Assembly: GCA_946811695.1 (NCBI GenBank)
Contig: OX328128.1
Coordinates: 78,795,606-78,859,605, forward strand
Reading direction: 5' to 3'
DNA from: Gonocerus acuteangulatus
Lineage: Eukaryota > Arthropoda > Insecta > Hemiptera > Coreidae
DNA: 64,000 nt
How positions within the stretch are numbered: the first letter of the stretch is position 1; every line of letters starts with the position of its first letter. The notes under the pieces were generated by a model. It ran no database searches. It worked only from the letters and a program-made list of their open reading frames with translations, and was not told the origin of the DNA. The translations under genes were made by a program, and so were the position numbers. Shown piece by piece: positions 1-19,390 of this stretch.

Positions 1-345
1 AATAGACTGATGTGATTCTACAAAAGGCATATCTGTCAGCAATAGACTGATGTGATTCTACAAAAGGCATATATGTCAGCAATAGACTGATGTGATTCTA
101 CAAAAGGCATATCTGTCAGCAATAGACTGATGTGATTCTACAAAAGGCATATCTGTCAGCAATAGACTGATGTGATTCTACAAAAGGCATATCTGTCAGC
201 AATAGACTGATGTGATTCTACAAAAGGCATATCTGTCAGCAATAGACTGATGTGATTCTACAAAAGGCATATCTGTCAGCAATAGACTGATGTGATTCTA
301 CAAAAGGCATATCTGTCAGCAATAGACTGATGTGATTCTACAAAA
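1..345. repeat. 40-bp tandem repeat array, cut by window edge
   Basis: About 8.6 near-identical copies of a 40-bp unit that begins aatagactgatgtgattcta. The array starts before the window and ends where the unit diverges after ctacaaaa. One copy carries atatgt in place of atctgt. No unique spacers separate the copies, so it is a minisatellite. Confidence 0.95.
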
Positions 346-3682: not shown

Positions 3683-3803
3683 ATATAAATTTTAATGGAC
3701 GTAATTTTCGGTATCTACTAGGAAGGACCGATGAAAATTTGAAGAATTGCAACCCCCTTCTGAAAGTGCTAAAAGTGGGCAAAGACTACTATCTTGAGAT
3801 TTT

Positions 3804-4056
3804 ACATTTTAATTGTAAATATAAACTATTAGGCTATATATGTGTACATTTTAATAGTAAATATAAACTATTAGGCTATATATGTATACATTTTAATAGT
3901 AAATATAAACTATTAGGCTATATATGTATACATTTTAATAGTAAATATAAACTATTAGGCTATATATGTATACATTTTAATAGTAAATATAAACTATTGG
4001 GCTATATATGTATACATTTTAGTAGTAAATGTAAACTATTAGGCTATATATGTATA
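3804..4056. repeat. 42-bp satellite array, left part, interrupted by Polinton
   Basis: About six copies of a 42-bp unit (core aaactattaggctatatatg). Because 42 is divisible by 3, the array makes a spurious open frame. The same unit in the same orientation resumes at 19208, directly after the Polinton, so the two halves were one array before insertion. The last six bases (tgtata, 4051-4056) are the left copy of the target duplication. Confidence 0.95.
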
Positions 4057-4307
4057 AGTAGTATAGGTCATGCGGGTTGAGCAAGAGCTAGATCCTAGGG
4101 CTGGGCGGGGTGGGGAAATTAAGGCGGGCGGGGGGGGTGGTACAGGAAGGGGCAGGGTTTGCTTTTACCCGCACATCATCTCTGACTCATGGTGGTTACA
4201 CTTGTTCGACGAGATTTGATCTAATTAGTATATTCGGCTTCTGCTAGGGCAGGGGTGGGGGCGGGCGGGGGGCGAGGGCGGGGTTTAGCCCCGCATCTAT
4301 GACTCAT
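4057..4307 (+). repeat. Polinton left terminal inverted repeat
   Basis: 251 bp, matching the reverse complement of 18958-19207 except for one extra G in a G run (8 here, 7 at the right end). Homology stops after gactcat. The top strand is very G-rich, with two clusters of four or more G-runs (4098-4115 and 4247-4283). Confidence 0.97.
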
Positions 4308-4402
4308 TGTCGAGATCTAATTAATCTGACCTCGGAGAATCTTTATAATTGCTGCTGCACTTGTTAGGACGGTATATCCTCATTAGTCAGCTGCTTCTGA
4401 AT

Positions 4403-4437
4403 ATTTTATACCTAACAATTCTCCACTAATCAGTTTG
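4403..4437 (+). promoter_or_regulatory. Candidate promoter of the CARD gene
   Basis: A TATA-like ttttata (about 4404-4410) lies about 28 bp before an arthropod-type initiator, aatCAGTt (A at 4432). The first ATG of the CARD gene is about 96 bp downstream. Both motifs are visible; the transcription start is inferred. Confidence 0.5.
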
Positions 4438-4527
4438 TTTATTTACACTTGTTGGTGCGGTGTTGTAGGAGTCAGGTGCATCCTGTACTATTTTCTTTTT
4501 ATCATATAGAGCCAGTTGTTGTTTGTC

Positions 4528-4968
4528 ATGGAAGAAACGCACAGACAAGTTATTATTTCTCTTCAAGATGTGATTATAAAGTACCTGAGTGACGAATGTG
4601 TTTTTCAAAAGGTATTGTCTTACTGTGTTAAAAGTAGAGTTTTTAATGAATGGATGCTCAATAAAATATTGAATACTCCTGGAGGCTTTGAAGAGAAAAA
4701 GAGACGATTTGTTCAAATGTTGCCAAAACGTGGTCCTGCTGCTTATGAAATGTTTTTAAACGCATTAAGGCAGACGGGTCTTTATGCACTGGTTCATAAA
4801 ATAAGAAAGTGTACGCAAATTCAACATTTTTTATGTGAAATTAACAGACTTAAAGAAGCATGTGAGTGTTATGAAAATAGTAGATTAAGAAGAAATGAGT
4901 CATTGTCTCGTGAGTTGGAGATAGAAATTAATAAATTAATTGAAACCATTAACGCTATGAGCTTGTAA
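4528..4968 (+). CDS. CARD-domain protein with C-terminal coiled coil
   Basis: Start chosen at ATG 4528 (146 aa); an in-frame ATG at 4516 would add four residues. Residues about 2-93 form a six-helix CARD-like region. The clearest signature is LPKRGPAAYEMFLNALRQTG (residues 65-84), the helix 4-5 pattern of caspase-2/Dronc/Apaf-1 type CARDs. The remainder (about 101-143) is charged and heptad-like, consistent with a coiled coil. There is no caspase protease domain. CARDs pair with other CARDs to assemble apoptosomes or inflammatory complexes, so a CARD-only protein could act as a decoy blocking initiator-caspase recruitment. That role is inference. Likely captured from a host gene. It is the leftmost gene, just inside the TIR. 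Confidence 0.72.
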   Translation: MEETHRQVIISLQDVIIKYLSDECVFQKVLSYCVKSRVFNEWMLNKILNTPGGFEEKKRRFVQMLPKRGPAAYEMFLNALRQTGLYALVHKIRKCTQIQHFLCEINRLKEACECYENSRLRRNESLSRELEIEINKLIETINAMSL

Positions 4969-4970
4969 AC

Positions 4971-4980
4971 TAGTCAGTCT
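4971..4980 (+). promoter_or_regulatory. Candidate initiator for the 5005 gene
   Basis: aactagTCAGTctt matches the arthropod initiator and sits about 30 bp before ATG 5005, straight after the CARD stop codon. No convincing TATA box precedes it, so independent transcription is only suggested. Confidence 0.35.
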
Positions 4981-5004
4981 TGTTGGTCTAATCGAAACGT
5001 GAAG

Positions 5005-5568
5005 ATGCAACCTTACTCGATGGAGCTGGTTACAGACTACAACTTTAGTCGCAATAAGTTTGTCCGTGTCGGACTCATCGGTGAATTGCCTGTAGTCGCA
5101 CTCGTGGACAAGAAGGCAGTGTTAACCATGGATAGAGAAGAGTGGACTTCAATTGTGAGCCTGGCACCGAAAATCACCAGTTATTTTGAAAAAGCGAAGA
5201 AGAAAGATACGGTTGAGGAACAGGTAAATTTTAAAAATATCGTTTGCCTCTTTTCGAGCAGGGGAAGAAACAGAGTAATCAGATTTGAAAATCCCTATCC
5301 CTGGTACGCAATGCTTAATCACAGCCCATTACCACACATGACGCTGAGTTCACCTTCAGTAAGTTTTAACAAAAGTGAAAGTGCAAAACTGTGTTCTAAA
5401 ATGGACAAAATTACCGACACCCTTTTATTAATGGAAAAAGTGTCAAAAGTATATATGAAACATATGAATCCACATCAGGCTGAACCGTTGGACTTATCTT
5501 GTAATACTTTATTAAACATGTTATGTAATGATAAGTCAGTTATGCTTGATGATGTAAAAATAAAATAA
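5005..5568 (+). CDS. Hypothetical accessory protein, possible PC4-like N-terminus
   Basis: 187 aa from ATG 5005, since the frame upstream offers only GTG. Residues about 12-58 alternate beta-like strands (FVRVGLIGELPVVALVDKKA), then a threonine/methionine turn and an amphipathic helix beginning DREEWTSIVSL. That layout resembles the ssDNA-binding PC4/p15 fold, where strands are followed by a helix with a conserved Trp. The middle has a second beta-rich part (NRVIRFENPYPWYAML) and the C-terminus is helical. The resemblance is weak and unsupported by any search. The gene is 36 bp after the CARD gene on the same strand. An AATAAA overlaps the 3' end at about 5560. Treat as hypothetical. Confidence 0.5.
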   Translation: MQPYSMELVTDYNFSRNKFVRVGLIGELPVVALVDKKAVLTMDREEWTSIVSLAPKITSYFEKAKKKDTVEEQVNFKNIVCLFSSRGRNRVIRFENPYPWYAMLNHSPLPHMTLSSPSVSFNKSESAKLCSKMDKITDTLLLMEKVSKVYMKHMNPHQAEPLDLSCNTLLNMLCNDKSVMLDDVKIK

Positions 5569-5658
5569 TTTTTTGAAACTGTTGTGTTTTTCTTTTATAT
5601 ATAAACCAAATCATGCAAGGTAAAAAAAAAAAAAAAAATGGTAAGTTTTTAGAATTGT

Positions 5659-5664
5659 TTTATT
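5659..5664 (-). terminator. Poly(A) signal of the minus-strand accessory genes
   Basis: The minus strand reads AATAAA about 50 bp beyond the stop codon at 5712. Between the convergent gene ends at 5568 and 5712 lies an A-run (5623-5638) and no other feature. Confidence 0.55.
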
Positions 5665-5711
5665 GAAAATTAAACAAAAACAATACAAAAAGTAAGTATC
5701 GTAAATAATTA

Positions 5712-5954
5712 TCAGTAATCAGTAGTAGTAGTAGTAGTAATTTCATCGATGTAACAAAGTGTTCGCTTCTGTAAAAATTCTTCATCGTTCTTCCACTCTT
5801 CAGGCAAGTTATCCCAGATGTAATCCAATGCATAATTAAAAACATACAAAAGGAGTGATCGAGGTAAAAGTTTTAATTCTTCCGTAGACAAACTTTCGAT
5901 TCCTTCCTCTCCCAAACGTCGTATTACTGCTTCCATCATAGAATCCATTATCAT
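5712..5954 (-). CDS. Small acidic helical protein of unknown function
   Basis: 80 aa with a true ATG at 5954. It is acidic and mostly helical: an amphipathic start (MMEAVIRRLGEEG), a leucine-rich middle (LPRSLLLYVFNYALDYIW) and an LPEEW motif. The C-terminus ends in a run of six threonines encoded by an (ACT)n microsatellite. A TATTTAAA-like box (about 5986-5993) and TTGTCAGA directly before the ATG look like its own promoter with a very short leader. It lies 30 bp downstream of the BIR-like gene, so it may belong to the same cell-death module. I recognise no family. Confidence 0.55.
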   Translation of the reverse strand: MIMDSMMEAVIRRLGEEGIESLSTEELKLLPRSLLLYVFNYALDYIWDNLPEEWKNDEEFLQKRTLCYIDEITTTTTTDY

Positions 5955-5984
5955 TCTGACAAGTAGATTGTCTACTCCAGCATT

Positions 5985-6671
5985 TTAAATATTTTCTTTC
6001 ATAAACCAAAAGCAGCTCGGACTAAATGTCTTATGATGTTTCAAACAAGAAACAGATGAATCGATATCATACTTCAAATTGCAATATACACATTTGACAT
6101 TTCCATCAAGTCCTCGAATGAATCCTGCAAATGAGAGTAAATGGTGAGGAATATTCCCAAACGTTTTATTTCGTACTTCTTCTTTACTAAAATCCACGGC
6201 CTCCGGATTTTTTCTCACCCACGTCGCTAAACGATGTGCTTGATTTAGAGAGCAGACAAAAGACGTGCCCAAATGGAAATGACACACAATATTATCATTT
6301 TCCAATTTTTTTAAATTGGGACATCCAAACTCATGAAGATCATAGACGGGTTGATTTACAATTTCCTCCAAGAGTTTACACTTTTCCAAGCCTTTTCCCC
6401 ACAATACTTCATAGGCTTTAGTAACAGAGGATAGGCAAGTGTTGATTTCTCTATATTCCACGTCTCCATAGTACCAGTCTATTCCGTGTATATTTTTCTT
6501 TACCCAAAGATTCGCTTTTGATTGAAGAGCCGAATCAGAGTCGTGAGGAGGTTTAAATATCCAATGCCATGATGAACCGTGATTTATATCGATTATGGAA
6601 AGTTCTTTAACAATGAGTTTGTTAATAGATGTGCGATAAGCTTGAAAATCAATTACTGCTGCTCGTTTCAT
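5985..6671 (-). CDS. Exonuclease-like protein with C-terminal BIR-like domain
   Basis: Start set at ATG 6671 (228 aa); the frame runs further up to a GTG through a Lys/Arg repeat but has no earlier ATG. Residues about 5-150 match a region common in arthropod genomes that resembles a degenerate DEDD exonuclease fold (VIDFQAY, KELSI, NLWVKKNIHGIDW). Residues about 148-223 look like a BIR: LATWVRKNP, then AGF at 182-184, then C194-x2-C197-x15-H213-x6-C220, the zinc spacing of inhibitor-of-apoptosis repeats (x16 is more usual). The conserved Trp between the second Cys and His is missing, so it is divergent. BIRs bind caspases or IAP antagonists; its role here is inferred. Confidence 0.68.
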   Translation of the reverse strand: MKRAAVIDFQAYRTSINKLIVKELSIIDINHGSSWHWIFKPPHDSDSALQSKANLWVKKNIHGIDWYYGDVEYREINTCLSSVTKAYEVLWGKGLEKCKLLEEIVNQPVYDLHEFGCPNLKKLENDNIVCHFHLGTSFVCSLNQAHRLATWVRKNPEAVDFSKEEVRNKTFGNIPHHLLSFAGFIRGLDGNVKCVYCNLKYDIDSSVSCLKHHKTFSPSCFWFMKENI

Positions 6672-6748
6672 TTTTCTTCTCTTCTTCTTCTTCTTCTTTC
6701 TCACGAAGCACCAGTAATGAAATAACCAGTGTAATGGGATTGTATCTT

Positions 6749-6757
6749 CTATTTATA
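6749..6757 (-). promoter_or_regulatory. TATA box of the BIR-like gene
   Basis: TATAAATAG on the minus strand, 78 bp before ATG 6671 and just beyond the major-capsid stop codon (6767). A start site near 6725-6730 would be at normal distance. This separates the accessory gene from the late capsid block. Confidence 0.6.
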
Positions 6758-6766
6758 CGCAGTACA

Positions 6767-7990
6767 TTAGTACATTTTACGGACCAAACCGGTTCCAGCT
6801 TCGTATTCTACAATTCTATCGTGAAGGATGAGACAAAATGCCCTAGTATTAGTTGGAAAATTTCCTGTGGATTCCATAAGGAGACGGATATCTATAGTGG
6901 TACTTTTAACGGCCTCTGACTGTTTAGAACAGTCAATGATAAAAACGGGAGTCAATGTTTCAAAATCTTCCCTGGACAAAAGAGGATGAGAATGTTTTTC
7001 ACCATAATAACTTGTTTGAAACAAGTTGTACATTTCATAGAGAAGAGCTACCTTTCCTTGAGCAAAATCCAAATTCATATCGTCATAAGGATATTGTTCA
7101 CTATTCAAGTAAAGTTTTATGTTTTTTATATTACAGTTGTCAAACTGACTACCATCTTTATTAATGTTTCTATTACGATCTGTTTGAAACGCCAATATAA
7201 CATAACGTGGTTTTTCTAAGTTTGTTGAAGTCTTAACGGTCCAACTTTCCTGCTGGGAGGCAGGTAAATGAGGATATTCGTATAGGTCCCATGACCTGAA
7301 TGGAATCGAAACGAGTTGATTTTTATCTACCATTCTTAACAGTCTTAGACGATGCTGATCCGAAACACGGACATGAGGCATTTTCCAAATTACTTTATCC
7401 AATTGGATTTTGACATCATCATCATTATTAGCCGCCGTTACACAGTTTAAGTCCGTACTGGATCTGATTAAAACAAGTTCTTGCTTAAGATTAATTAAAA
7501 TCCGTTGATAATCCTCGCAGATTCCCAATAAAATGTTTAAGGGTAGGCATATGCTAAAAACACCGTTTTTATCTATGGAAAGAGTTTTTCCTTTTCCGGG
7601 AGTAATCCATCCGGCATTTTCAAGCCCCGTGACTCTGTTGGGAGAAAATGAAGCGAGACCTTTAAGTGTGGACGTAACTCCGGGATTTCTTACTCTGTCC
7701 ACCTCTATTCCATTTAATTCGTATCTGATTTCGTCAAACAGGAATGCGAAAGCGTTATTAGTCAATTTTGAAGTAGATCCATTGGTTCCATCTTTTTTCA
7801 AAATACGTCCTTCCAAATATATAAAACTTTGTGAAGGAATCGTATAAACATCTTGTTGATGAACAGGTATTCTGATTTCGTCCGATTGGTTGAATGTGTT
7901 TCCTGCATACGGTTGATGTGAATGAAATTGAATTTGAGCAAGAGAATTGTCGAATTCAATGTCTGACGTCACATTTAATATGTTATCCAT
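6767..7990 (-). CDS. Major capsid protein, double jelly roll
   Basis: 407 aa from ATG 7990, the usual size for Polinton hexon-like proteins. It opens with the familiar region in which a target sequence around YAGNTFNQSDEIRIPV leads into the first beta barrel, has an FDEIRYELNG segment near residue 88 typical of Polinton capsids, and a second barrel from about residue 220 (RSWDLYEYPHLP; RYVILAFQTDRN). No signal peptide or membrane segment. It would form the pseudo-hexameric capsomers of an icosahedral particle. It follows the small basic gene by 16 bp, as the last gene of a minus-strand late block. The frame is intact. Confidence 0.92.
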   Translation of the reverse strand: MDNILNVTSDIEFDNSLAQIQFHSHQPYAGNTFNQSDEIRIPVHQQDVYTIPSQSFIYLEGRILKKDGTNGSTSKLTNNAFAFLFDEIRYELNGIEVDRVRNPGVTSTLKGLASFSPNRVTGLENAGWITPGKGKTLSIDKNGVFSICLPLNILLGICEDYQRILINLKQELVLIRSSTDLNCVTAANNDDDVKIQLDKVIWKMPHVRVSDQHRLRLLRMVDKNQLVSIPFRSWDLYEYPHLPASQQESWTVKTSTNLEKPRYVILAFQTDRNRNINKDGSQFDNCNIKNIKLYLNSEQYPYDDMNLDFAQGKVALLYEMYNLFQTSYYGEKHSHPLLSREDFETLTPVFIIDCSKQSEAVKSTTIDIRLLMESTGNFPTNTRAFCLILHDRIVEYEAGTGLVRKMY

Positions 7991-8006
7991 TTTTTTTTCT
8001 TTTTTG

Positions 8007-8192
8007 TTATTTTCTTTTCAATTTAAACCCACACTGTCTTAAAAATTTTGCGTTTGCAGTTGTTAACCGTCTTGATGACTTTAGTTTACTAAACATTAAC
8101 GAACTTTGATATTGCCTTTTATAGTCGGTTCTACTTTTACTGCTGCTGCTGCTGCTGCCGACGCCTCCGCTACGAATAAAATCAATTCCCAT
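8007..8192 (-). CDS. Small basic virion-core-like protein
   Basis: 61 aa with a true ATG at 8192, overlapping the end of the minor capsid gene by 11 bp and ending 16 bp before the major capsid gene. It is strongly basic, with a serine run coded by a (TGC)n-type microsatellite and an Arg/Lys tail (LRQCGFKLKRK). Polintons and adintoviruses often have such short basic ORFs between penton and hexon genes, thought to act like adenovirus core proteins. The tight overlap and strand favour a real gene; function is inferred. Confidence 0.6.
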   Translation of the reverse strand: MGIDFIRSGGVGSSSSSSKSRTDYKRQYQSSLMFSKLKSSRRLTTANAKFLRQCGFKLKRK

Positions 8193-8889
8193 CTTTCTTC
8201 AAATGCAATCTCAAAGTAATAGTTTCTCCTCTGAAGACAATTAGTTCACCGCTTTGGTCTACGATTCGAACTGTAATATTGTCTATAGTCCTCACGTTGA
8301 TTGGCAAGTAAATGACTGGATTTGGTGTTTCTATTATTTTATATCCCGGTTCTACAGCGGGAAAAAATTGGTGAATACTATGATCGGCTTTTCCATTTAT
8401 AAATGAGCCAGATGCGATATTACATTGAACCGAAATTGTATTTACATTAAGTATTTGCACTATATCATTCGATTCCAGAAACTTTTCAGATGGTACAAGA
8501 AGAAAATTACGATGAGTAAAACCTAAAAGTGGTCCAATGGAATTTGGTTTTTCGGGGAAATTAAAATATATTACATGAGTTGATTTTATCTCCGACTTTA
8601 AGGTATTTGGATTTCCTCTTATCATTAGCACAACGCTTGGATCTTGGTGAGATATTTGTTCACGTAAAAATGATTCTATGGCATCAATATCATATGAACC
8701 TTCGGGTATTTGAATGGATAAATTACCTATATAAAACATGTCATTAACATTTTTCTGAAGGTTTGGAATGGTGTAAAAAGTATCAAACGACAATAGTCCA
8801 ATGGAGTAAGAGCCGTCCAATTCTAGCGGAGGTAAAAAGTTTGCTTGGAGCACACTGGAATTACCCGTTAACGTTACAGAGTAGCTCAT
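8182..8889 (-). CDS. Minor capsid (penton-like) protein, single jelly roll
   Basis: 235 aa from ATG 8889. Beta-rich throughout. The N-terminal MSYSVTLTGNSSVL followed by LDGSYSIGLLSFDTFYTIPN is the usual opening of Polinton/virophage penton-type proteins, and GSYDIDAIESFLREQ matches their conserved helix. It would occupy the five-fold vertices next to the major capsid protein. It starts 21 bp after the protease frame ends and overlaps the next ORF by 11 bp, as expected in a polycistronic late block. Unbroken. Confidence 0.85.
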   Translation of the reverse strand: MSYSVTLTGNSSVLQANFLPPLELDGSYSIGLLSFDTFYTIPNLQKNVNDMFYIGNLSIQIPEGSYDIDAIESFLREQISHQDPSVVLMIRGNPNTLKSEIKSTHVIYFNFPEKPNSIGPLLGFTHRNFLLVPSEKFLESNDIVQILNVNTISVQCNIASGSFINGKADHSIHQFFPAVEPGYKIIETPNPVIYLPINVRTIDNITVRIVDQSGELIVFRGETITLRLHLKKDGN

Positions 8890-8910
8890 GGTTGTAAATA
8901 AATAAAATGT

Positions 8911-9270
8911 TCACGAATGGTCGATTAAATACTGTAAACAAAGATGTCCGCAGATTGATGTATTCCACTCTTGATATCTTTCTCTATTATATGTAATATT
9001 TAACCCTTTAAAATATTTTAATAATTGAGGAGGTGGTTTTAAATTTCCAAAAGAATCGAAATAAGTAACTTCGTTATTATTTTTCAAATAGCAGACCCAG
9101 TGTGAACCCTTTTCAGAACTCGGTTCTAAATTTATGATAGCGGACTCGCTTTTTTTCCATGGAGACGGAGGTAGTGTATCAATCATAAATACACCTCGAA
9201 AGTGTGGAATACATAATACGTTTTGAGCCAAATGATTCAGTTCGACATCCGTTAAAGCCCTTTGAGGTAG
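8911..9270 (-). CDS. Adenain-like cysteine protease without its own AUG
   Basis: The open frame between TGA (9271-9273) and the stop at 8911 codes 119 residues. The catalytic pieces are visible: His in GSHWVCYLK, Asp in YFDSFG, a Gln-containing RERYQEW segment and the nucleophile Cys in ICGHLCLQYL. Related virus proteases mature capsid proteins inside the particle. Conserved-looking sequence (LTDVELNHL ... FRGVF) precedes the first in-frame ATG, which lies inside the fold (FMIDTLP), so that ATG cannot start a full enzyme. The frame is the same as that of the upstream PLA2/pX gene. Translation by readthrough of TGA CTA, a spliced leader, or a non-AUG start are the options. It is shorter than adenovirus proteases (about 200 aa). 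Confidence 0.85.
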   Translation of the reverse strand, partial: LPQRALTDVELNHLAQNVLCIPHFRGVFMIDTLPPSPWKKSESAIINLEPSSEKGSHWVCYLKNNNEVTYFDSFGNLKPPPQLLKYFKGLNITYNRERYQEWNTSICGHLCLQYLIDHS

Positions 9271-9276
9271 TCATAT
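9271..9276 (-). promoter_or_regulatory. Possible stop-codon readthrough site, TGA CTA
   Basis: The PLA2/pX gene ends in TGA followed at once by CTA in the same frame as the protease. UGA CUA is the best known leaky-stop context in metazoans and their viruses. The following base is C, whereas the strongest version has G. Visible: the in-frame arrangement. Inferred: functional readthrough. Confidence 0.4.
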
Positions 9277-10035
9277 TTGATAAGATTTTTTGCCTTTTTT
9301 TCTTTTAGATCCTATAAACAATCCATATCCTTTTCGATAAGGCTTTAGGTAAAGCCCATTACCAATTTTCTGAGCTTCCATCGCTAAATTGTGTCTTTTT
9401 TGCTCATCCAATTTTTGTTTAGCTTCTCTTGCTTCACTGACTGCTTTAGCAACACTTGCCGCTCCCCCTGCTAGTGAACCAATAGCTGAAAGACCCGCCA
9501 TTATCGGTACGAGAAAGGGTAAAAACCCTCCGGTTTTGTTTGGTATTGGAAGAACCCGAGGTGCCGTAGGTCTGTGTTTACCATTGAGATGTTTTTTAGC
9601 CTGTTTATAAGCCATTTTCGAAGCTTTAATAATCGAGGACAAATCGTTTACCTTTGCCGATTTAACAAGTTTTTTGAAACTAGTCTTTTTTTGAATACCC
9701 GAACCCATCTTTCCTTTAGCTTTCATCGCATTCGCCACTAACCAGGAAGCCGCCTTTTCCCCCAACGATGTATCCGACGCTGTAGCTCTTTGCCAAGCTT
9801 TTTCTTCAAGGACTCTATCGGCTCGTCGTCTACTCTCCAAATCTTTATGTTGATTATAAGCTATATCGTGCTCTTTGCAGGCTTGATCGAGTAGATTTAT
9901 TCCTCTGTCGCCTTTAGCCAATCGATTTTTTAGTTTAGTACCGGGGCCGCAATACTGATATCCTGGGAGGTGTAATTCAAAGGGCAGTTTGTTTATAAGA
10001 GTGTTCAATAGACCTCTTCCTCGTTTCCTTCTCAT
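9274..10035 (-). CDS. PLA2/pX-type minor capsid protein
   Basis: 254 aa from ATG 10035 (stop codon 9271-9273). Residues 28-57 carry the hallmarks of a parvovirus-type phospholipase A2: calcium loop YCGPGT (28-33), then D50, C53 and the catalytic HD pair (56-57). A long Lys/Ala-rich middle follows, then a glycine/alanine hydrophobic segment (about 169-199, GGFLPFLVPIMAGLSAIGSL) resembling adenovirus pX/pVI membrane-active regions, and a basic C-terminus. Homologues are minor virion proteins that disturb host membranes during entry. First gene of the minus-strand late block, divergent from the ATPase; its stop leads in frame into the protease. Confidence 0.85.
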
Positions 10036-10041
10036 ACTACT

Positions 10042-10082
10042 ACTAATGCAGCAACGTTCGCCAACTTCTTTATATATAAAAC
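10042..10082. promoter_or_regulatory. Shared bidirectional TATA region between late block and ATPase
   Basis: The near-palindromic tttatatataaa (10069-10080) works as a TATA box on both strands. On the minus strand a TTAGT initiator (A at 10044) is about 32 bp away, giving a very short leader for the PLA2/pX gene. On the plus strand TTGTCAGT lies immediately before the ATPase ATG at 10121, about 45 bp from the TATA, a little too far. Confidence 0.5.
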
Positions 10083-10120
10083 CAGATGATCATTTGCATA
10101 AACTAGTATTAGTTGTCAGT

Positions 10121-10819
10121 ATGAAGTTGATTGAGCAAAAAGAACGTTTTCAAGCAGTCGAGTTACCGCCACCGCCACCGGCGATAGAAAAAGAAACGGA
10201 TCGAAGACATGGACCACTGTTGCCGAACACAATAAGGGCTGCTGTTTGTGGCCCAAGCGGATGTGGAAAAACGAATATTATGCTTAGTCTTCTATTAGAT
10301 TCAAACGGTGTGAAATTTAAAAATGTTTATATTTTCGGAAAGACTTTACATCAGCCTAAATATCGATATTTAAAAACTATTTTAAGCCACGTTGCGGACA
10401 TTATAGGATTTTACACCTTCGAAGATGCAAAGGAATTGCCTCAAGACGTGGAGTCCGACTCTGTTTGCATATTTGATGACGTCACTATGGAAGATCAAAA
10501 TACTATTAAACGATATTTTAGTTATGGACGTCATAAAAACCTCGATTGCTTCTATTTGACTCAGAGTTATGTTTGCATTCCCAGACATCTCATCAGATGT
10601 AATTTTAATTTTTTGATCGTATTCTCTCAAGACGAACTGAATTTAAGACACATTTATGATGAACATGTTAGCAGTTCGGATTTGAGTTTTTCGACTTTTA
10701 AAAATATATGTTCCTTATGTTGGAAAGATTCTTTTGGTTATCTTGTCATTGACAAGAGTAGTGATTCGAACAATGGTCGATTTCGAAAAGGTCTTGATAC
10801 GTTCATTGTCGATATATAA
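10121..10819 (+). CDS. Genome-packaging ATPase (FtsK/HerA-like)
   Basis: Start set at ATG 10121 (232 aa): it follows TTGTCAGT directly, and the upstream part of the frame overlaps the divergent gene and its promoter. Walker A GPSGCGKT is at residues 44-51 and Walker B VCIFDD at 115-120. A later DCFYLTQSY is the usual sensor-like motif with Gln, followed by PRHLIRCN. This matches the A32-type packaging ATPases of Polintons, virophages and poxviruses, which pump DNA into preformed capsids. A proline-rich N-terminus precedes the domain. The stop codon overlaps the TATA box of the next gene. Confidence 0.93.
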   Translation: MKLIEQKERFQAVELPPPPPAIEKETDRRHGPLLPNTIRAAVCGPSGCGKTNIMLSLLLDSNGVKFKNVYIFGKTLHQPKYRYLKTILSHVADIIGFYTFEDAKELPQDVESDSVCIFDDVTMEDQNTIKRYFSYGRHKNLDCFYLTQSYVCIPRHLIRCNFNFLIVFSQDELNLRHIYDEHVSSSDLSFSTFKNICSLCWKDSFGYLVIDKSSDSNNGRFRKGLDTFIVDI

Positions 10820-10846
10820 GGATGTTTTAAAGTTGAATTTTATCAT
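10812..10846 (+). promoter_or_regulatory. Candidate promoter of the 10855 gene
   Basis: tatataag spans the ATPase stop codon (TATA box about 10813-10820), with tatCATTatt near 10842 at initiator distance and the ATG 12 bp beyond. Spacing fits; strength is unknown. Confidence 0.45.
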
Positions 10847-10854
10847 TATTCGTC

Positions 10855-12093
10855 ATGGATCCAAAAGTTACTCGTGAAATTATGCAAACGAGTGATTCGT
10901 TAAGAAAAAAATTTCATTCATTAAAGCGTCGATTGGAGGATACACAAGGAGAACGTCAAAGGTTTTTTTCTCCCTTACTTGAACCACTAGAAGATATAAA
11001 GAAACACGTACTCGATAGGAATATAGCCGCTCCTCCCCCTCCTTCTACCATTTATTCTTCTCCTCGAGGGTTTACACCTCACAAATTAATAAAAAAGCCT
11101 AGAAAACTAATCGAAACATTTGATGAGGAAAGTATGTGGGAAGATCCAAACGCCACAGTCCAAACACCACCTATTTATCGAAGATCGACTATGATTCCTT
11201 CAACTAGCGAGACCGCCTCACCACAGTCATCATATGTCGTAGTTCAGTCACCGCCGCCACCGCTACGTACCGAAGAATTATTATTACCAGAAAAAGAAGA
11301 AAGACAGATTAAAAAAGAAAAAACGGGTGAGGAGGAAGAATATGAGACGGAAAGTGCACTTGTTGAAAAAGTAAGAGAGTACGTTAAAACACCACAAGGA
11401 GAGGAGGAACTCGAAGAAAATTTAAGGACGGCCGGACCTTTGCAAAGACATTATTTAGCCAAGTTATTCAAAGGAGGAGGTAAGAAAACTCTAGACGACA
11501 GGTATGGTCTTCGAGTTATGCCTGATGGAGGACTTGCCATTGGTGATTCGACAGACGTTCAGCTTTTCGCAAACAGCGATGACATCAACATTAATGGAAA
11601 AGTATACGAAGGAACACCCGGTCTACTCCAGCTTCTTTATTTAAAAAACCCTGAGAGTTACACACAAGATGACCTGAAAAACTATAAAAACATTCTAGTA
11701 TTGACGAATGCACACAAGAAAGGCTTTAGCCAAGAGCGTGGCTTACAAGGATCTAGATCTATAAAATATAGAAATGTAATATCCAAGTTATTTTCAAACA
11801 AGTATTTTAGTCCTCACAAAATTAGTAGTAGTAGTAGTAGTCGTAGCCCCGTTGTGAGAAGAGTGTCTTCACTCCGGTCGTATAAAACAGCAGCAGCAGC
11901 AGCAACTGAAAGAAAAAAGGGAACTGGGCTTATGCATGCGTATAAACCTGTATTTGAATTTTGGAATGATCCGAACGAATTAGTGGATCGACTCAAATTA
12001 CTAGTTGCTTCGTCTCAAGCCGGACACAAAGGTCATGAAAATGAAATTGAATCGATAATTGAAGAGTTGCGCGAGGAAAATATAATATATTAA
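10855..12093 (+). CDS. Polinton-associated hypothetical protein (DUF8207-like)
   Basis: 412 aa from ATG 10855. N-terminus: a coiled-coil-like basic helix (LRKKFHSLKRRLEDTQ), then a long disordered Pro/Ser/Glu-rich linker. Residues about 213-295 form a compact domain (DDRYGLRV, IGDSTDVQLF, INGKVYEGTPGLLQLLYLKN, then YKNILVLTNAHKKG) that I recall as the recurrent domain of arthropod Polinton proteins catalogued as DUF8207; that name is from memory. The C-terminal part has serine and alanine runs coded by trinucleotide microsatellites. Function unknown; a structural or assembly role is plausible from its position beside the packaging ATPase. Confidence 0.72.
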   Translation: MDPKVTREIMQTSDSLRKKFHSLKRRLEDTQGERQRFFSPLLEPLEDIKKHVLDRNIAAPPPPSTIYSSPRGFTPHKLIKKPRKLIETFDEESMWEDPNATVQTPPIYRRSTMIPSTSETASPQSSYVVVQSPPPPLRTEELLLPEKEERQIKKEKTGEEEEYETESALVEKVREYVKTPQGEEELEENLRTAGPLQRHYLAKLFKGGGKKTLDDRYGLRVMPDGGLAIGDSTDVQLFANSDDININGKVYEGTPGLLQLLYLKNPESYTQDDLKNYKNILVLTNAHKKGFSQERGLQGSRSIKYRNVISKLFSNKYFSPHKISSSSSSRSPVVRRVSSLRSYKTAAAAATERKKGTGLMHAYKPVFEFWNDPNELVDRLKLLVASSQAGHKGHENEIESIIEELREENIIY

Positions 12094-12120
12094 CGTTTTA
12101 ACAATCATTTTTAACTCACA

Positions 12121-12144
12121 ATGTTTTTGCTAGTGTCACAATGA
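12121..12144 (+). CDS. Seven-codon upstream ORF overlapping the next start
   Basis: ATG at 12121 opens a seven-codon frame whose TGA (12142-12144) overlaps the ATG of the fibre-repeat gene (12141) in the arrangement ATGA. Such overlaps allow termination-reinitiation. It could also be chance. An AT-rich TATA-like stretch lies at about 12080-12091. Confidence 0.35.
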   Translation: MFLLVSQ

Positions 12145-12584
12145 CCATAAGCAAGTTTGGAACTCACGTAACAAAAAAGTATTCAAAGTATAAAAAACAT
12201 TATTTTCCATTCAGTTCATTAAAATCTGAACAGCATATCGATGCGAATAACCTACGAATAATAAAAGTTGCTAACCCGGTTGCTTCTACTGACGCGGTCA
12301 ACAAATTGTATGCAGATGCGTTAGCACTTTTTTACACAGATTTGAAAAATTGGCCTAATAATTATATAAATGGTAAAGGAAAAAGGCTTGTTAACTTTGC
12401 ACTACCCATAAACGGTTATGATGTTGTTACTAAAGATTATTTAGAAAAGCATGTGATAACTTTAATTGAAGATAAATATGATGCTCAGGGCAAAAGGATT
12501 ACAAATATTAAAGATCCTCTACATGAAAGAGATGTGGTAACTCTTGGTTATCTAAACAACATATTAAAGAAATCATCATTATAA
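12141..12584 (+). CDS. Small fibre-like repeat protein
   Basis: 147 aa from ATG 12141. After a basic N-terminus it contains three diverged repeats with the pattern Leu/Ile-x-asn-hydrophobic, two residues, Pro, then Asp-Val/Ala-Val and Tyr-Leu: around residues 38-60 (VANPVASTDAVNKLYAD), 82-105 (LPINGYDVVTKDYL) and 115-140 (DPLHERDVVTLGYL). The same pattern builds trimeric beta-structured shafts in phage tail fibres. It may be a virion fibre or spike, though this is inference from the pattern alone. Its TAA overlaps the integrase ATG (TAATG), so the two are translationally linked. Confidence 0.62.
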   Translation: MTISKFGTHVTKKYSKYKKHYFPFSSLKSEQHIDANNLRIIKVANPVASTDAVNKLYADALALFYTDLKNWPNNYINGKGKRLVNFALPINGYDVVTKDYLEKHVITLIEDKYDAQGKRITNIKDPLHERDVVTLGYLNNILKKSSL

Positions 12585-13546
12585 TGGACTCGAGGATAGA
12601 GAAGAAGAAGAAGACTGTGGTCGACGAGCTGCATAAACCAGCTCGACGGATATATCCTAGACGGAAAACAGTTTTGAAAGGGGTAAATGACTTGTGGCAA
12701 ATAGATTTAGTTGAAATGATACCTTATGCAAAATTCAACAAAGGGCACAGATATTTATTAACAATTATCGATTGCTTTTCTAAATTTGCATGGGCTGTGC
12801 CGATAAAAAGAAAAACAGGACAAGACACGAGCAAAGCTTTGGAAAAAGTGTTTCTCTCGAGCAAACGCGTTCCAAAAAATATACAGAGTGATGCCGGTAG
12901 GGAATTTTATAATTCTCAGTTCAAAATGCTGATGAAGAAATATAAAATTAATCATTATTCTACTTTTTCAAATATGAAAGCCTCGATTGTCGAAAGATTT
13001 AATAGAACTTTAAAGGCAAAAATGTGGAAAACTTTTAGTCTCAGAGGAAATTACAAATTCTTAGATATTCTACCTTCTCTCTTGTATGAATATAATGAAA
13101 CATATCACAAAACGATTGGTATGAAACCGATCGAGGTTACGTCCAAAGATATTGAAAAATATTTATTAGCAAATGTGTATTCGACAAAACCAAAGAAAAA
13201 AAAGAAAAGAAAAGAAAAGATGATTAATAAACAAACATTTGATGAAGGAGATTACGTTAGAATTTCCAAACATAAAACTACATTTTCAAAAGGTTATACT
13301 CCGAATTGGACAGCTGAAATATTTAAAATAATCAAAGTTCAGAATACGAAACCTTATACATACCTTTTGGAAGATGAGAATGGTCAATCAATTAAAGGCT
13401 CGTTTTATGAAGAAGAAATTCAAAAAGTCAAATATCCAGACGTATATCTTGTTGAAAAAGTTTTAAAAAGGAAAGGAAAAAACTTGTATGTGAAATGGAT
13501 GGGATTATCTCAGAAATCATGGATCAAAGAAAATGATATTGCATAA
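12584..13546 (+). CDS. Polinton integrase, retroviral DDE type with chromodomain
   Basis: 320 aa from ATG 12584. Catalytic triad: D41 in WQIDL, D103 in SDAGREF, E137 in SIVERFNRT; the D-to-E spacing of 33 is close to the classical 35. Residues about 283-320 form a chromodomain (YLVEKVLKRKGKNLYVKWMG), which targets modified histones. The N-terminal zinc-binding HHCC region of longer integrases is absent, so the protein is at the short end. It catalyses insertion with a 6-bp duplication, agreeing with tgtata at the ends. It overlaps the preceding stop by one base. Confidence 0.95.
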   Translation: MDSRIEKKKKTVVDELHKPARRIYPRRKTVLKGVNDLWQIDLVEMIPYAKFNKGHRYLLTIIDCFSKFAWAVPIKRKTGQDTSKALEKVFLSSKRVPKNIQSDAGREFYNSQFKMLMKKYKINHYSTFSNMKASIVERFNRTLKAKMWKTFSLRGNYKFLDILPSLLYEYNETYHKTIGMKPIEVTSKDIEKYLLANVYSTKPKKKKKRKEKMINKQTFDEGDYVRISKHKTTFSKGYTPNWTAEIFKIIKVQNTKPYTYLLEDENGQSIKGSFYEEEIQKVKYPDVYLVEKVLKRKGKNLYVKWMGLSQKSWIKENDIA

Positions 13547-13812
13547 CAATTACATATATGTATTTATTGTTTAAAATATAAGTATTTGACACAATTGTAT
13601 TGTTTTGTTTTGTATACCTTTATTCTAAAACTATTTTAAATACACAAAAGTTATAATTTATACATCTTACATTAAATTGATTATTACTTTCAATATATTC
13701 TCGACGTTACATATAAAAAAGCACATAGATAATAAAAAAAAAAAAAATAAAGAAAAGAAACTAACTACTTAAATTACACTTATTATAACAAATGGTGGTT
13801 ATGATTGTTTTA
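13547..13812. terminator. Convergent 3' region between integrase and polymerase
   Basis: AT-rich non-coding stretch with plus-strand AATAAA near 13731 and at 13746-13751 for the integrase. On the minus strand an AATAAA (13808-13813) overlaps the polymerase stop codon. Confidence 0.5.
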
Positions 13813-16800
13813 TTATTGATCCAGGTTGTAATGACCAAAAGGCAGTGTTTGCACACCATTTTCTAGAGTATATCTTTTGTCGTCGAAAGAGCATAGCGAT
13901 ATTTTGTTTATTAGTACGGTTTTAACATTATGTCGTTTTGATTGTATTGTATAAAATGAAGAAAACATTTTTTTACTGGTTTCAAGTGTATTTAAATAAT
14001 CTGTAAAATTAAAGTCCTTGACTGATGATTGTTTAACGCCCTTGGCTTTTTTAACACAAGTTTCATTATTTGTTAAAAATGAATACATTTTGGGCCTTAA
14101 GCCTACAAATTCTACAATAGGGTCCCCAAAGGTTTCATCCTTCAAAAGACCAACAATTTTTTTATTTTTCTCCGAATAACATAAATGAGATTTTGGAAAG
14201 TTGCTTGTGTCAAAAAATTGATGCAAGTCATTAGCTATATCAAAATAAATGTCATCTGTTTTAATGCTATACAAGAGGCTATCAGTGTCAGTATAACACA
14301 AGGACACGTTATTTAAACCATATTTTTGAAGAAAAACGTTGTAGTGATAATCATACATTAGAACTTTGCTTAGTTCTAATATCGAAAACCCCACGTAAAT
14401 AGGCTTGTTAAATACAACTTTTTCCTTTTCCAACTGTACTCCTACAACGTTGTCAGCAAATATAAACCTGTCTTTAAAATTTGGTTTGTTTACAAGGTTT
14501 CTCAATGATTTTGTATTAGTAACAATTTTTAAATCTATTCGGTTTCGAACGTTTTCCATAAATTTACCAAAACAGCTGTTGTTCATGAGTTTGTAAAAAT
14601 CTGACTCAAAGGTATTTTTTGATAAAGCTCGCATTTTGCTATTAACTTCGATATATCGAGACAGCCATTTGCTTTGTTTAAATTTTAATATTCTGTAAAT
14701 CTTAGTCACTTTTAGTCCGAGTTGTAAAGCTTGTTTTAGATTAATGTAATGTACAATATAACGTGATTTGGGTTTCAAAGTGGTTAATAGTTTTACGGTT
14801 TTTCCATTAGGCGGGATTGTGTTCTCGGGCAATAAAGGCAATTGAGAGTGTTTATCGTGAATTTCTTTGGGATAGGATATATCTACATCAAACACATAGC
14901 CAATCTCGGAGTCGTTGTCTACATCCAAAGGGTTTATAGTTTCGTCTGTCCACTCTAAACCCCCATATGGCAGTGGGCAATTCATGGCGTACCCGTATAA
15001 ATTGTTAACGTCAACATACAATAAATAATTGCTACTTTTAGACGAATCGTATTCTTTCAGATATTTATTATTTGCTTTTGCATGACGTTGAATAACTTGA
15101 CAAATTCCTCCTCTGATTCCTTTTTCAAAAAACTGAATCATATCAATATCTTTCACTATATCTAATTTTATATTTGTATATTTGAGCATCGCGTTCCAAG
15201 ATAGCTGTGGTAGGGTGTAGAACCAGGCCGGATCCAATTGATATATTTTTATGCAAAGTGAGCGAAAGGTTTCAAAGACTTCACAAAGCAATATGACATC
15301 TGTTTTAATATATAATTCCGTGTATTCTTTTAGTGTTTTAATATTAAAGGTTTTCCAAACTGTCCGAGCGTGAGTATAGTCTAAATCGCTAATATGCTTT
15401 TGTGTTAAATCGTTGTAGAATTTTTCTTTTGTCGGCAATTTAGTTTCCTTCAAACGGTCCAGCGAATCAAAGTAATTATAAGGAAACACTCCTTTTCTGG
15501 TAAGCAAATCAATTTTTTTTTCATCATTTATAATTTTGTACATATGGGGAAAAACCTCAATTAGCGGTTGAGTATTATTTTTTAAATTTGTAACCAATGT
15601 TTCTAAGCTAGAAGAAAGAAATTTGTAGCTATCGATAAATCTTATTTTAGTCATACACCCTACAAACGTTATGCTAAAACTGATATATTTTTCGGTATTG
15701 CTTGGAATTACTGTTACATTTTCACAAAGGCCTAGAAAGGGAATTATAAAATGCGAGTCATAGTTTTGTAAGTTGTGCATAAACACTGGTATAAAATCTG
15801 GTTTTCTTGCTCTTAAATTACAGGCATTATGTGCGGCTCCGATAAATTTCCCTGAATAATGACAATGGTGGTGAACGCGATCTTCCATCAGATTGTCTTT
15901 TTGACATAACACGCATATATTTGTAGAGGAAAATAATACTTTTTCCTCGTTGCTCAATTCGTTCATCGGAATAGGAAGTATTTCATCGACTTTGGCGACT
16001 AACGATCTCAATTTCTCTATAAATGCTTGCATACAATTTTCTCCCGTATATACGAACGGGTCTAAATCAAACATATCTGATTTAACGAGTAAAGAAACTG
16101 AAAACGGCACATGCTGATGTACTTGTTTCGTCCAAGAAATCGAAGGATTGGGAGAAGCTGTCGATATCGGAACCAAAAGTGATTCGATATCTGCATATGC
16201 TACTATTGGCACTGGCTGTGAGTATTCTACCTGCTTAAATTCAATATTATCTTCTTCTGGGAAAACAGATCGTACGGCTTTATGCTTTTGACAAAATAAT
16301 TGATGATCCACTAACCGTTCCTTGGCGTTTTGCCCCCTAATATTCACGACTCCTGTTGGAAATTGAGAAAGACACCTTCGACAGATTTCATATGAACGTT
16401 TACCAGAAGAGGATATCTGCGAACTTAGTAATCGTGATAAATTTGTAATTAGGCAGTAATGAGTGTTTTCCTCATTTTGAAGATATAAAAGATCAAAAGC
16501 TTTGTCATATTCATACTTCTTACTTATTCTTAACGGATATACTTGACACTTTTCATCTAGACCAAAAACATTAATGCTCACATTATTTACAATTTCGAAA
16601 GGTGCGATGTCTTTTATTAGAGTCGGGTAGGATATACAATCGAATGAATAGGAAGATTCGATATTTGAATATGCTTCGGGATCATTTAGCCTAATAATTT
16701 CACTGAGAATAGCAAAACGAAAACATTCGTCGGTCGACGTGTTTTTTACATTTATTACACAATGTTTATCTTTTATTTGTTTTGGTAATTCAATGAATTT

Positions 16801-17463
16801 GGCACCTCCTAAGGGTTTATATTTTGTCAAATGTAAACAAATATAATTAGCCGAAGTATACGTCCAGTTTGATCCCTTTGTCTCAAATGATTCTTGTTCG
16901 TTAACAACTTTATCGTATACGTTTTTGATAAATTCGTCCAAATCTGTACTTTCATCGATAATTTTGACTTTTGATTTAAAATTAATATCTGTTCTTTCGA
17001 CAACGGTATTCTCTACCCTTTTCGTATATGTGCATTCTAACATAAAATTTACTTTAATATTTTTCCACTCTTTAAGATAGGATTTTATTAAATTTAATAT
17101 CACATATTTTTTACTGTATAAAAATTCTTGAGATGTTCTACTCTTATCGTCGTTTGGAATATAAACATCTTCGACTTGGTTTCCTAAACAACTTTTGATA
17201 ATTCCATTTTCCTGAGCTACGGCCGATTCTCTCCACCGCTTATCGAAAATAGTGTACTTTTTCTTTTTCTTTTTCACCGGTTCCGGTGATCCGTTCATAT
17301 TAAATGTTTGATTGCGACTGAAGGCTGTGCAATTCGGAATATGGCGTTTGTAATTATATGCCTTGGTGAACTCTTTACTACAACCTTTACAATAATAAAA
17401 CAACCATTTACATTGGTGTCTATGAGTTGGCAAAAGCAACCCACACCGAGAACATAAAAACAT
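13813..17463 (-). CDS. polB: Protein-primed-type family B DNA polymerase
   Basis: 1216 aa from ATG 17463, a single unbroken frame. The N-terminus has paired zinc-finger-like Cys/His groups (MFLCSRCG, then a C2H2 pattern ending RHIPNC). Exonuclease motif I is YADIES at about 423; motif II is near YDSHFIIPF. Polymerase motifs: DVNNLYG at about 818 (motif A), NSCFGKF at about 960 (motif B) and YTDTDS at about 1057 (motif C, catalytic aspartates). A Cys/His group around residues 510-535 (CVLCQ ... HHHC) recalls an HNH-like insert common in Polinton polymerases. It replicates the element, probably primed by a terminal protein. Intact catalytic residues suggest a functional enzyme. Confidence 0.96.
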   Translation of the reverse strand: MFLCSRCGLLLPTHRHQCKWLFYYCKGCSKEFTKAYNYKRHIPNCTAFSRNQTFNMNGSPEPVKKKKKKYTIFDKRWRESAVAQENGIIKSCLGNQVEDVYIPNDDKSRTSQEFLYSKKYVILNLIKSYLKEWKNIKVNFMLECTYTKRVENTVVERTDINFKSKVKIIDESTDLDEFIKNVYDKVVNEQESFETKGSNWTYTSANYICLHLTKYKPLGGAKFIELPKQIKDKHCVINVKNTSTDECFRFAILSEIIRLNDPEAYSNIESSYSFDCISYPTLIKDIAPFEIVNNVSINVFGLDEKCQVYPLRISKKYEYDKAFDLLYLQNEENTHYCLITNLSRLLSSQISSSGKRSYEICRRCLSQFPTGVVNIRGQNAKERLVDHQLFCQKHKAVRSVFPEEDNIEFKQVEYSQPVPIVAYADIESLLVPISTASPNPSISWTKQVHQHVPFSVSLLVKSDMFDLDPFVYTGENCMQAFIEKLRSLVAKVDEILPIPMNELSNEEKVLFSSTNICVLCQKDNLMEDRVHHHCHYSGKFIGAAHNACNLRARKPDFIPVFMHNLQNYDSHFIIPFLGLCENVTVIPSNTEKYISFSITFVGCMTKIRFIDSYKFLSSSLETLVTNLKNNTQPLIEVFPHMYKIINDEKKIDLLTRKGVFPYNYFDSLDRLKETKLPTKEKFYNDLTQKHISDLDYTHARTVWKTFNIKTLKEYTELYIKTDVILLCEVFETFRSLCIKIYQLDPAWFYTLPQLSWNAMLKYTNIKLDIVKDIDMIQFFEKGIRGGICQVIQRHAKANNKYLKEYDSSKSSNYLLYVDVNNLYGYAMNCPLPYGGLEWTDETINPLDVDNDSEIGYVFDVDISYPKEIHDKHSQLPLLPENTIPPNGKTVKLLTTLKPKSRYIVHYINLKQALQLGLKVTKIYRILKFKQSKWLSRYIEVNSKMRALSKNTFESDFYKLMNNSCFGKFMENVRNRIDLKIVTNTKSLRNLVNKPNFKDRFIFADNVVGVQLEKEKVVFNKPIYVGFSILELSKVLMYDYHYNVFLQKYGLNNVSLCYTDTDSLLYSIKTDDIYFDIANDLHQFFDTSNFPKSHLCYSEKNKKIVGLLKDETFGDPIVEFVGLRPKMYSFLTNNETCVKKAKGVKQSSVKDFNFTDYLNTLETSKKMFSSFYTIQSKRHNVKTVLINKISLCSFDDKRYTLENGVQTLPFGHYNLDQ

Positions 17464-17782
17464 ATTATTTTTTATTAACTAATTTAGTCTTATGAAATAA
17501 TAGTATAAATTATAAAATTCTAATGTTAAATTATTTATAAATTAAATTTAATATGTGTTACGAAGAAAAATATATATATATATATATGTTTAGACAAATT
17601 AAGTTTATAATTTTTATATAATAACCTCCTTTTTTAAAAATTTTGCAGTCTTACAGTGAGTATGTCTTTTAGTTTATTTAAAAACCCTAATTTATCATAT
17701 AACTTTAAATCATTAACTTTATTTAAAAGCTTTAAATTGATTGAGTATTATATAAACATGTAAAGAAAATCAAAAAACAATC
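17464..17782. other. AT-rich spacer between polymerase and small spliced gene
   Basis: Very AT-rich, with a short TA run (17569-17587). No open frame of note. It should contain the polymerase promoter (minus-strand TATAAATTA-like sequences occur near 17530-17545) and the 3' end of the small spliced gene. Confidence 0.4.
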
Positions 17783-18161
17783 CTATACAAATGTAATTTG
17801 ATACGCGTTCTTTTTTTTCCCTTCATATATCATTTTTAGCGTTCCTGCAAAACGAATATATAATAAACATAAACATTTAACTAATTATGCTTTTATTAAA
17901 TAAACAGAAAAATTACATACCTTTATAATTTATTAGTTCTTCCGCTGAAAAACATTGTATATATCGTTTCGGTAAAAATGTTCGTATATCTTCTCCGCCT
18001 TCCTCAGCTTCTATAACAGCTTCAATAGCATCTCCATATTCTGTTTGCTTCTTTGTTAACGTTTTAATTTTGTAAATAGTTTTTACCTCCAACTCACTTA
18101 TACTTTTGTATGCAATATTATTGCCAATATTGTTCAACTTCCTTGCAAGCGACATCTGCAA
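17783..18161 (-). CDS. Small conserved Polinton protein, two exons
   Basis: Exon 1 is 18161-17921, from ATG 18161. Read straight on, it stops two codons later, but AAAG|GTATGT at that point is a near-perfect donor. Exon 2 is 17844-17783, after ttttgcag. The intron is 76 bp (17845-17920), phase 1. The predicted product is about 100 aa. Exon 1 contains YKIKTLTKKQTEYGDAI and FLPKRY, and exon 2 restores a C-terminal strand pattern (MIYEG ... YQITF). I recall this layout in a widespread small-protein family of invertebrate mobile elements, perhaps OB-fold-like; function unknown. Restored family pattern across the junction supports the splice. Confidence 0.7.
17845..17920 (-). other. 76-bp spliceosomal intron
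   Basis: Begins GTATGTAATT and ends TTTTGCAG on the minus strand. Size and borders are typical of insect introns. It implies nuclear transcription and splicing of the element. Confidence 0.65.
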
Positions 18162-18957: not shown

Positions 18958-19207
18958 ATGAGTCATAGATGCGGGGCTAAACCCCGCCCTCGCCCCCCGC
19001 CCGCCCCCACCCCTGCCCTAGCAGAAGCCGAATATACTAATTAGATCAAATCTCGTCGAACAAGTGTAACCACCATGAGTCAGAGATGATGTGCGGGTAA
19101 AAGCAAACCCTGCCCCTTCCTGTACCACCCCCCCGCCCGCCTTAATTTCCCCACCCCGCCCAGCCCTAGGATCTAGCTCTTGCTCAACCCGCATGACCTA
19201 TACTACT
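18958..19207 (-). repeat. Polinton right terminal inverted repeat
   Basis: 250 bp, the reverse complement of 4057-4307 with one G/C-run length difference. It ends in cctatactact, followed by the right target duplication tgtata (19208-19213). Confidence 0.97.
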
Positions 19208-19390
19208 TGTATACATTTTAATAGTAAATGTAAACTATTGGGCTATATATGTATACATTTTAGTAGTAAATATAAACTATTGGGCTATATATGTATACAT
19301 TTTAATAGTAAATATAAACTATTGGGCTATATATGTATACATTTTAGTAGTAAATGTAAATTATTAGGCTATATATGTATACATTTTTAT
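19208..19390. repeat. 42-bp satellite array, right part
   Basis: About 4.3 copies of the same 42-bp unit and orientation as 3804-4056. Removing the Polinton and one tgtata joins the halves into a perfect unit. Confidence 0.95.

Follow-up and report, generated by a model that had tools for sequence, protein, structure and literature searches.

In the coreid bug Gonocerus acuteangulatus, a stretch of 64,000 nucleotides (hereafter the window; assembly GCA_946811695.1, contig OX328128.1, positions 78,795,606 to 78,859,605 of the forward strand) carries a Polinton whose bounds, read to the base from its ends, its inverted repeats and its target-site duplication, are 4057-19207 (15,151 bp). Towards its left end lie two genes on opposite strands. 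One encodes a CARD protein with a helical tail, and the other a protein in which a predicted Maelstrom (MAEL)-like domain is followed by a BIR, here termed the MAEL-BIR protein. The exact ends, terminal repeats and 6-bp duplication place both genes within the Polinton, as the preliminary description of this DNA had proposed. Their features, with the basis of each in brackets, are as follows.

4528..4968, forward strand: gene for the CARD-only protein, 146 amino acids (Pfam CARD, 2.2e-10; AlphaFold2 (AF2) model with CARD structural matches)
4573..4800, forward strand: CARD, residues 16-91 by Pfam and about 5-97 by structural match (Pfam and structure comparison)
4819..4965, forward strand: residues 98-146 of the CARD protein, a helical C-terminal tail with no family assigned (predicted secondary structure)
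5985..6671, reverse strand: gene for the MAEL-BIR protein, 228 amino acids, ATG at 6671 (family profile searches, predicted structure)
6192..6671, reverse strand: N-terminal MAEL-like domain of DEDD/RNase H fold, residues 1-160, with the ECHC residues E23, C130, H133 and C140 (predicted fold, motif)
5997..6191, reverse strand: C-terminal BIR, residues 161-225, with C194, C197, H213 and C220 (Pfam and PDB profiles, Foldseek)

The CARD open reading frame (ORF) runs from the ATG at 4528 to the stop at 4968, and LPKRGPAAYEMFLNALRQTG, the signature by which a CARD without a caspase domain had originally been proposed, begins at residue 65. This assignment is confirmed. Pfam CARD matches at 40.9 bits (E 2.2e-10, cut-off 23.9), and among Pfam families at E<=1 the 146 residues contain no caspase, protease or nucleotide-binding domain, the sole other match being a weak one to a DMPK coiled coil (E 0.19); the combination of a CARD with the lack of protease and nucleotide-binding domains is that of CARD-only decoys. 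The AF2 model is likewise predicted to adopt a CARD fold, so that the death fold expected in 4528-4968 is present in the model, with ICEBERG as its top structural match, and the closest matches by sequence are CED-3, Dronc and RAIDD. The fourth helix of the CARD is basic (EEKKRR), and in this it would resemble the surface that the caspase contributes to the known interface of the apoptosome. Because of this helix and of a net excess of basic residues overall, the protein would be expected to bind the acidic CARD of a partner of Apaf-1/Dark/CED-4 type and, being protease-less, would exclude the procaspase in the manner of CARD-only decoys.

Virus-encoded CARDs without a protease have precedents in the CARD-only proteins of ranaviruses, GIV-CARD and frog virus 3 064R, the former being a 91-residue, ICEBERG-like protein of grouper iridovirus that reduces apoptosis (PMC4457926). 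The Polinton protein differs from these in its length of 146 residues with an extra helical tail, in being closest to CED-3, Dronc and RAIDD, and in being Polinton-borne. It also differs from human ICEBERG, COP and INCA, which are regulators of caspase-1, the identity being 15%. A search of the protein database for CARD homologues gave 19 candidates, none of them at E<=0.001, and a scan of viral contigs gave pattern matches with no relative confirmed.

For the MAEL-BIR protein a family could be assembled. Sequence search of the protein database returned seven relatives at E<=0.001 among 155 candidates, and a profile search 16 at E<=1 among 2898, which with the window sequence makes 17. The BIR makes up just the last third of the protein, and the approximately 160 preceding residues, which the preliminary description had overlooked, form a predicted Maelstrom-like domain. 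Relatives P0011-P0016 are 28-35% identical over the first 160 residues and have no visible BIR, and P0010 ends at about the first cysteine of the BIR. Three of the BIR-less proteins, P0013, P0014 and P0016, are encoded on contigs of 10.7, 189 and 358 kb, respectively. Scans of viral contigs with the MAEL-BIR alignment A1 and with alignment A3, and of genome contigs with A3, gave pattern matches and no confirmed relative.

The AF2 model of the MAEL-BIR protein was built on an alignment of eight sequences and has a predicted local distance difference test (pLDDT) score of 71.7, with residues 44-66 (mostly) and 175-180 below 50. Ahead of the BIR it contains three strands, a helix, a strand and further helices. 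Foldseek placed DnaQ/TREX/DEDD-type nucleases in its top seven PDB rows, with E values between 7.5e-3 and 1.6e-2 and no row reaching E<=0.001. The highest VIA scores were for DinG (9.9), Maelstrom (9.8; 9nhs_F, 138 residues aligned, root-mean-square deviation (rmsd) 4.2), ISG20L2 (9.7) and DnaQ (9.4); of the 50 VIA rows five were Maelstrom, and arenavirus exonucleases scored 8.7 and below. The assignment to Maelstrom is narrowed beyond this shared fold by the presence of an ECHC zinc tetrad, a feature known from Maelstrom and arenaviral ExoN (PMC7968707). Residues D122, N124, E137, C290, H293 and C302 of Bombyx MAEL (PMC4408791) have as their counterparts in the family D8, Q10, E23, C130, H133 and C140; in the two proteins the spacing from D to E is 15 and C-x2-H is equal, with nine residues from H to C in Bombyx and seven here. 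The ranges of the VIA superposition (model 1..157, chain 115..319) bring D8 onto 122 and C140 onto 302, assuming ungapped ends. The predicted zinc site is complete in 14 of the 17 family sequences, the exceptions being P0014, P0015 and P0016.

Both the predicted DEDD/RNase H fold and the ECHC tetrad of MAEL are present, and the catalytic DEDD set is lost as in metazoan MAEL, as scored at the first and second acid positions: D8 is retained throughout (17/17), and the second acid of the D-x-Q motif is Q in 13 sequences, E in three and C in one. The replacement of this acid (N124 in Maelstrom, Q10 here) is shared with the MAEL domains of known structure (Bombyx 5af0/9nhs, Drosophila 4ybg). The MAEL-BIR protein differs from Maelstrom in that it has no HMG box, is about 45 residues shorter between the E and the first C and carries an appended BIR. 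At the level of sequence, Pfam Maelstrom gave no match at E<=10 and a PDB search with a 13-member profile (A2) no row. Nor did any HMG box precede the domain at E<=10, the domain beginning at residue 1, and such a box is not universal among MAEL proteins (PMC2628886). Bombyx MAEL, with a like catalytic loss, binds single-stranded RNA and cuts no RNA (PMC4408791). Since the second acid is lost here too, the window domain is by analogy probably nuclease-dead and RNA-binding. A genuine DEDD exonuclease was considered and rejected, the second acid being Q in 13 of the 17 sequences, though E is kept in three. Relatives that keep D-x-E, P0013 and P0016 included, may on this sequence feature be active as nucleases.

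Related folds are found among insect viruses. Four BFVD structures matched the MAEL-BIR model at E<=0.001, the best being Q4FEW2 (7.6e-8), which has no name. The other three, protein A0A7D4ZHK6 of Drosophila-associated adintovirus 2 (1.8e-6) and ichnovirus proteins S5DRE3 and A2PZZ9, resemble the MAEL-BIR model in fold across alignments of 134-175 columns, with E values from 1.8e-6 to 7.3e-5. The BFVD relatives differ in their length of 131-199 residues, which mostly leaves no room for a BIR, and are 19-26% identical to MAEL-BIR. Adintovirus 1 of Drosophila has been noted to carry a possible, very distant homologue of an ichnovirus gene (PMC8363768). On these models, MAEL-like proteins look to be recurrent among insect DNA viruses, whereas fusion to a BIR was observed in the window's branch only.

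The C-terminus has the AGF (182-184) and the C194-x2-C197-x15-H213-x6-C220 motif exactly as first described, and the BIR fold expected from them is supported by Foldseek, which matched the AF2 model to XIAP BIR2 at a probability of 1.00 (4kju, rmsd 3.1). Taken alone, the window sequence lies just below the Pfam BIR cut-off (21.1 bits against 22.9, E 4.4e-4) and also matches zf-BED (E 2.1e-4). Of the eight family members scanned, all match Pfam BIR (best 6.6e-8) and two zf-BED, and zf-BED was rejected as the identity of this region on these counts. When PDB was searched with an eight-member profile, 29 of the 32 rows were IAP/BIR chains, cIAP1 and cIAP2 at the top, and the lowest E value was 0.0011. 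The complete zinc site (C-x2-C...H-x6-C) is found in 10 of the 17 family sequences, the window included. Judged on sequence, the C-terminus is a divergent BIR that is safely recognised only at the level of the family, because just 4 of the 16 relatives carry a BIR label from Pfam in the database and the window sequence falls under the cut-off.

The preliminary description had read this BIR as a possible caspase inhibitor, and here it fares less well. Type II BIRs, which bind caspases or IAP-binding motifs (IBM), have E or Q before the zinc-binding His and W or H three residues after it (PMC8917759, section 7). Each of these markers is missing from all ten BIR-bearing sequences. XIAP BIR3 uses a loop Trp and an acidic residue six positions ahead of the His; neither occurs in any of the ten. 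RING or further domains gave no match at E<=10 in the eight members scanned. The likeness to the BIRs of cIAP1/2, XIAP BIR2 and DIAP1 lies in the C-C-H-C ligands with their spacing, the AGF and the XIAP BIR2 fold match, whereas the protein departs from IAPs in its single C-terminal BIR, its missing Type II markers and the lack of a RING, a domain that many, though not all, IAPs have. The name IAP was rejected on account of the Type II markers. Since these markers and a RING are both absent, direct inhibition of caspases by the BIR is, as far as sequence can tell, unlikely, and docking of some other partner is the better guess for its role.

Such docking could be to signalling proteins. The CARD would then be an activator or docking part and not a decoy, for example a nucleator of filaments of NF-kappaB/Imd or inflammasome type, and a Type I-like BIR would contribute to that survival signalling by way of partners of TRAF/TAB type. 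The two best BIR profile matches, the cIAP1 and cIAP2 chains, which we take to be BIR1 domains, are compatible with this, as is a Ser at position 81, the less strict sign of a Type I-like BIR, which is present in six of the ten BIRs, that of the window included; the modelled helical extension of the CARD protein could moreover oligomerise. Type I BIRs bind TRAF and TAB1 (PMC8917759, PMC9204419). However, the conserved V/L of Type I is found in none of the ten, and we regard this explanation as quite improbable.

How the two genes are arranged bears on whether they act together, and involves three further features.

5005..5568, forward strand: 187-residue ORF downstream of the CARD gene (no Pfam match; PDB rows at chance level only)
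5712..5954, reverse strand: 80-residue ORF downstream of the MAEL-BIR gene (no Pfam match; a homologue is fused to the MAEL-BIR C-terminus in P0002, 47/60 identical)
6750..6757, reverse strand: TATAAATA (86 bases before the MAEL-BIR ATG)

The CARD gene and the 187-residue ORF read away from the left end, towards the right, and the capsid gene, the MAEL-BIR gene and the 80-residue ORF read leftward; poly(A) signals close to 5559 (forward) and 5659 (reverse) point towards each other. The neighbourhood of the MAEL-BIR gene and the 80-residue ORF has been kept at least once, as P0002 joins both. The CARD and BIR genes had been proposed to suppress cell death together, as a cassette that would stop the activation of initiator caspases at two points; in this model the BIR would grip caspases directly. 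As one transcription unit this cassette was rejected, since the units converge on opposite strands. As a joint function it retains the two domain calls, both of which stand, and the position of both genes within 2.2 kb, and baculovirus-type viral BIR proteins that block apoptosis are well known. Set against this are the missing Type II markers and RING, the convergent units with their facing poly(A) signals, and the search for co-occurrence, in which the protein database yielded relatives of the BIR protein and no CARD relative at E<=0.001. While both domains and the Polinton were correctly recognised, the joint caspase-blocking model is very unlikely to be right.

The same arrangement is compatible with the MAEL-BIR protein being an accessory of replication or of the virion, which would handle nucleic acid in replication or packaging, have no immune role and use the BIR merely as a zinc-stabilised fold. 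Its gene comes immediately after that of the capsid protein, in the same orientation, and TATAAATA, for which a promoter role is inferred, is found in the element at two places only, before the MAEL-BIR gene and before the PolB-like ORF (17532-17539, reverse strand). The predicted domain is moreover a nucleic-acid-binding fold, and ichnoviruses and a Drosophila adintovirus have structural relatives of it. Yet the gene is outside the core Polinton set, and the MAEL-type loss of the catalytic acid speaks against a replication nuclease; we consider such a role doubtful.

We favour, with moderate confidence, a different reading, namely that the CARD-only protein is a likely decoy of initiator-caspase CARDs and that the opposite-strand protein is a predicted nuclease-dead Maelstrom-like domain joined to a BIR for which caspase binding is improbable. 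With its zinc tetrad kept and its second catalytic acid lost, the MAEL-like domain would hold single-stranded RNA without cutting it, docking to other proteins would fall to the BIR, and the two proteins would hit separate host pathways, cell death and RNA control, rather than two points of one. On the model, Maelstrom is not singled out by fold alone among DEDD-type proteins, and the PDB search with the wider, 13-member profile (A2) returned no row at E<=10, which counts against the BIR assignment. A bolder version, in which the nuclease-dead, RNA-holding MAEL-like/BIR protein mimics Maelstrom and blunts germline piRNA silencing of the element while the CARD decoy keeps the cell alive, is in our estimation unlikely.

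The element itself has the makeup of a Polinton/Maverick (adintovirus-like).

4051..4056: left target-site duplication, TGTATA (identical six bases past the right end)
4057..4307, forward strand: left terminal inverted repeat, 251 bp (one 1-base gap and no mismatch against the right repeat)
6767..7990, reverse strand: double jelly-roll major capsid protein (Pfam DJR-like_dom, 4.6e-118)
12584..13546, forward strand: rve integrase (Pfam rve, 9.3e-16)
13813..17463, reverse strand: PolB-like ORF, 1216 residues (motifs A at 818, B at 958 and C at 1057, in order)
18958..19207, reverse strand: right terminal inverted repeat, 250 bp (alignment to the left repeat)
19208..19213: right target-site duplication, TGTATA (copy of the left six bases)

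Terminal inverted repeats and a 6-bp target-site duplication, the structural hallmarks of such elements, are accompanied by their gene set as recognised by Pfam, that is, a double jelly-roll capsid protein, an A32-type packaging ATPase (Pox_A32, 5.7e-7) and an rve integrase. The PolB-like ORF, a candidate for the protein-primed PolB of such elements, is so named from its motif patterns, and had no polymerase match in Pfam, PHROGs, NCBIfam or PDB. An adenovirus-type protease is matched weakly, under the cut-off (Peptidase_C5, E 0.081). Scanning viral contigs with the capsid and PolB-like proteins gave pattern matches, from which no relative could be confirmed. All 14 ORFs examined have their sole stop at the end, so that the Polinton shows no sign of decay. 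A 42-bp minisatellite flanks it on both sides in unchanged orientation (3780-4050 and 19208-19400), which indicates insertion within a repeat array. At 9271-10035 (reverse strand) a phospholipase A2-like domain (Pfam, 6.5e-13) shares an ORF with a stretch resembling an adenovirus core protein (0.0012, under the cut-off). A 147-residue ORF at 12141-12584 (forward strand) has two stretches resembling a phage tail fibre hinge (Pfam Phage_T7_tail, 3.6e-15; several PHROGs tail families), which is odd for an animal Polinton. Elsewhere in the window, a short ORF at 21313-21558 (reverse strand) matches zf-AD weakly and below the cut-off (E 0.0066), a possible though not conclusive sign of an arthropod host; a tRNA scan found none, and an Rfam scan one tRNA.

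Among the matches listed from the open part of PubMed Central (PMC), no title or abstract opening describes a Polinton or adintovirus with a gene of CARD, BIR or Maelstrom-like type, which leaves novelty unproven, and the available portions of PMC11071296, PMC8363768 and PMC8097293 contain no such gene. The new content is the MAEL-like/BIR fusion together with a candidate CARD decoy within a single intact element. The two genes bear on the survival of Polintons, which combine traits of transposon and virus, in the face of animal host defences, and offer concrete, cloneable counter-defence candidates, one directed against cell death and the other, more boldly, against small-RNA silencing. The fusion, a caspase-inhibitor fold without caspase-binding marks, is also a warning against naming IAPs by zinc motif alone. 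If the bolder reading is true, the homologous MAEL-like proteins of an insect adintovirus and of wasp ichnoviruses would represent a common anti-silencing tool of insect DNA viruses.
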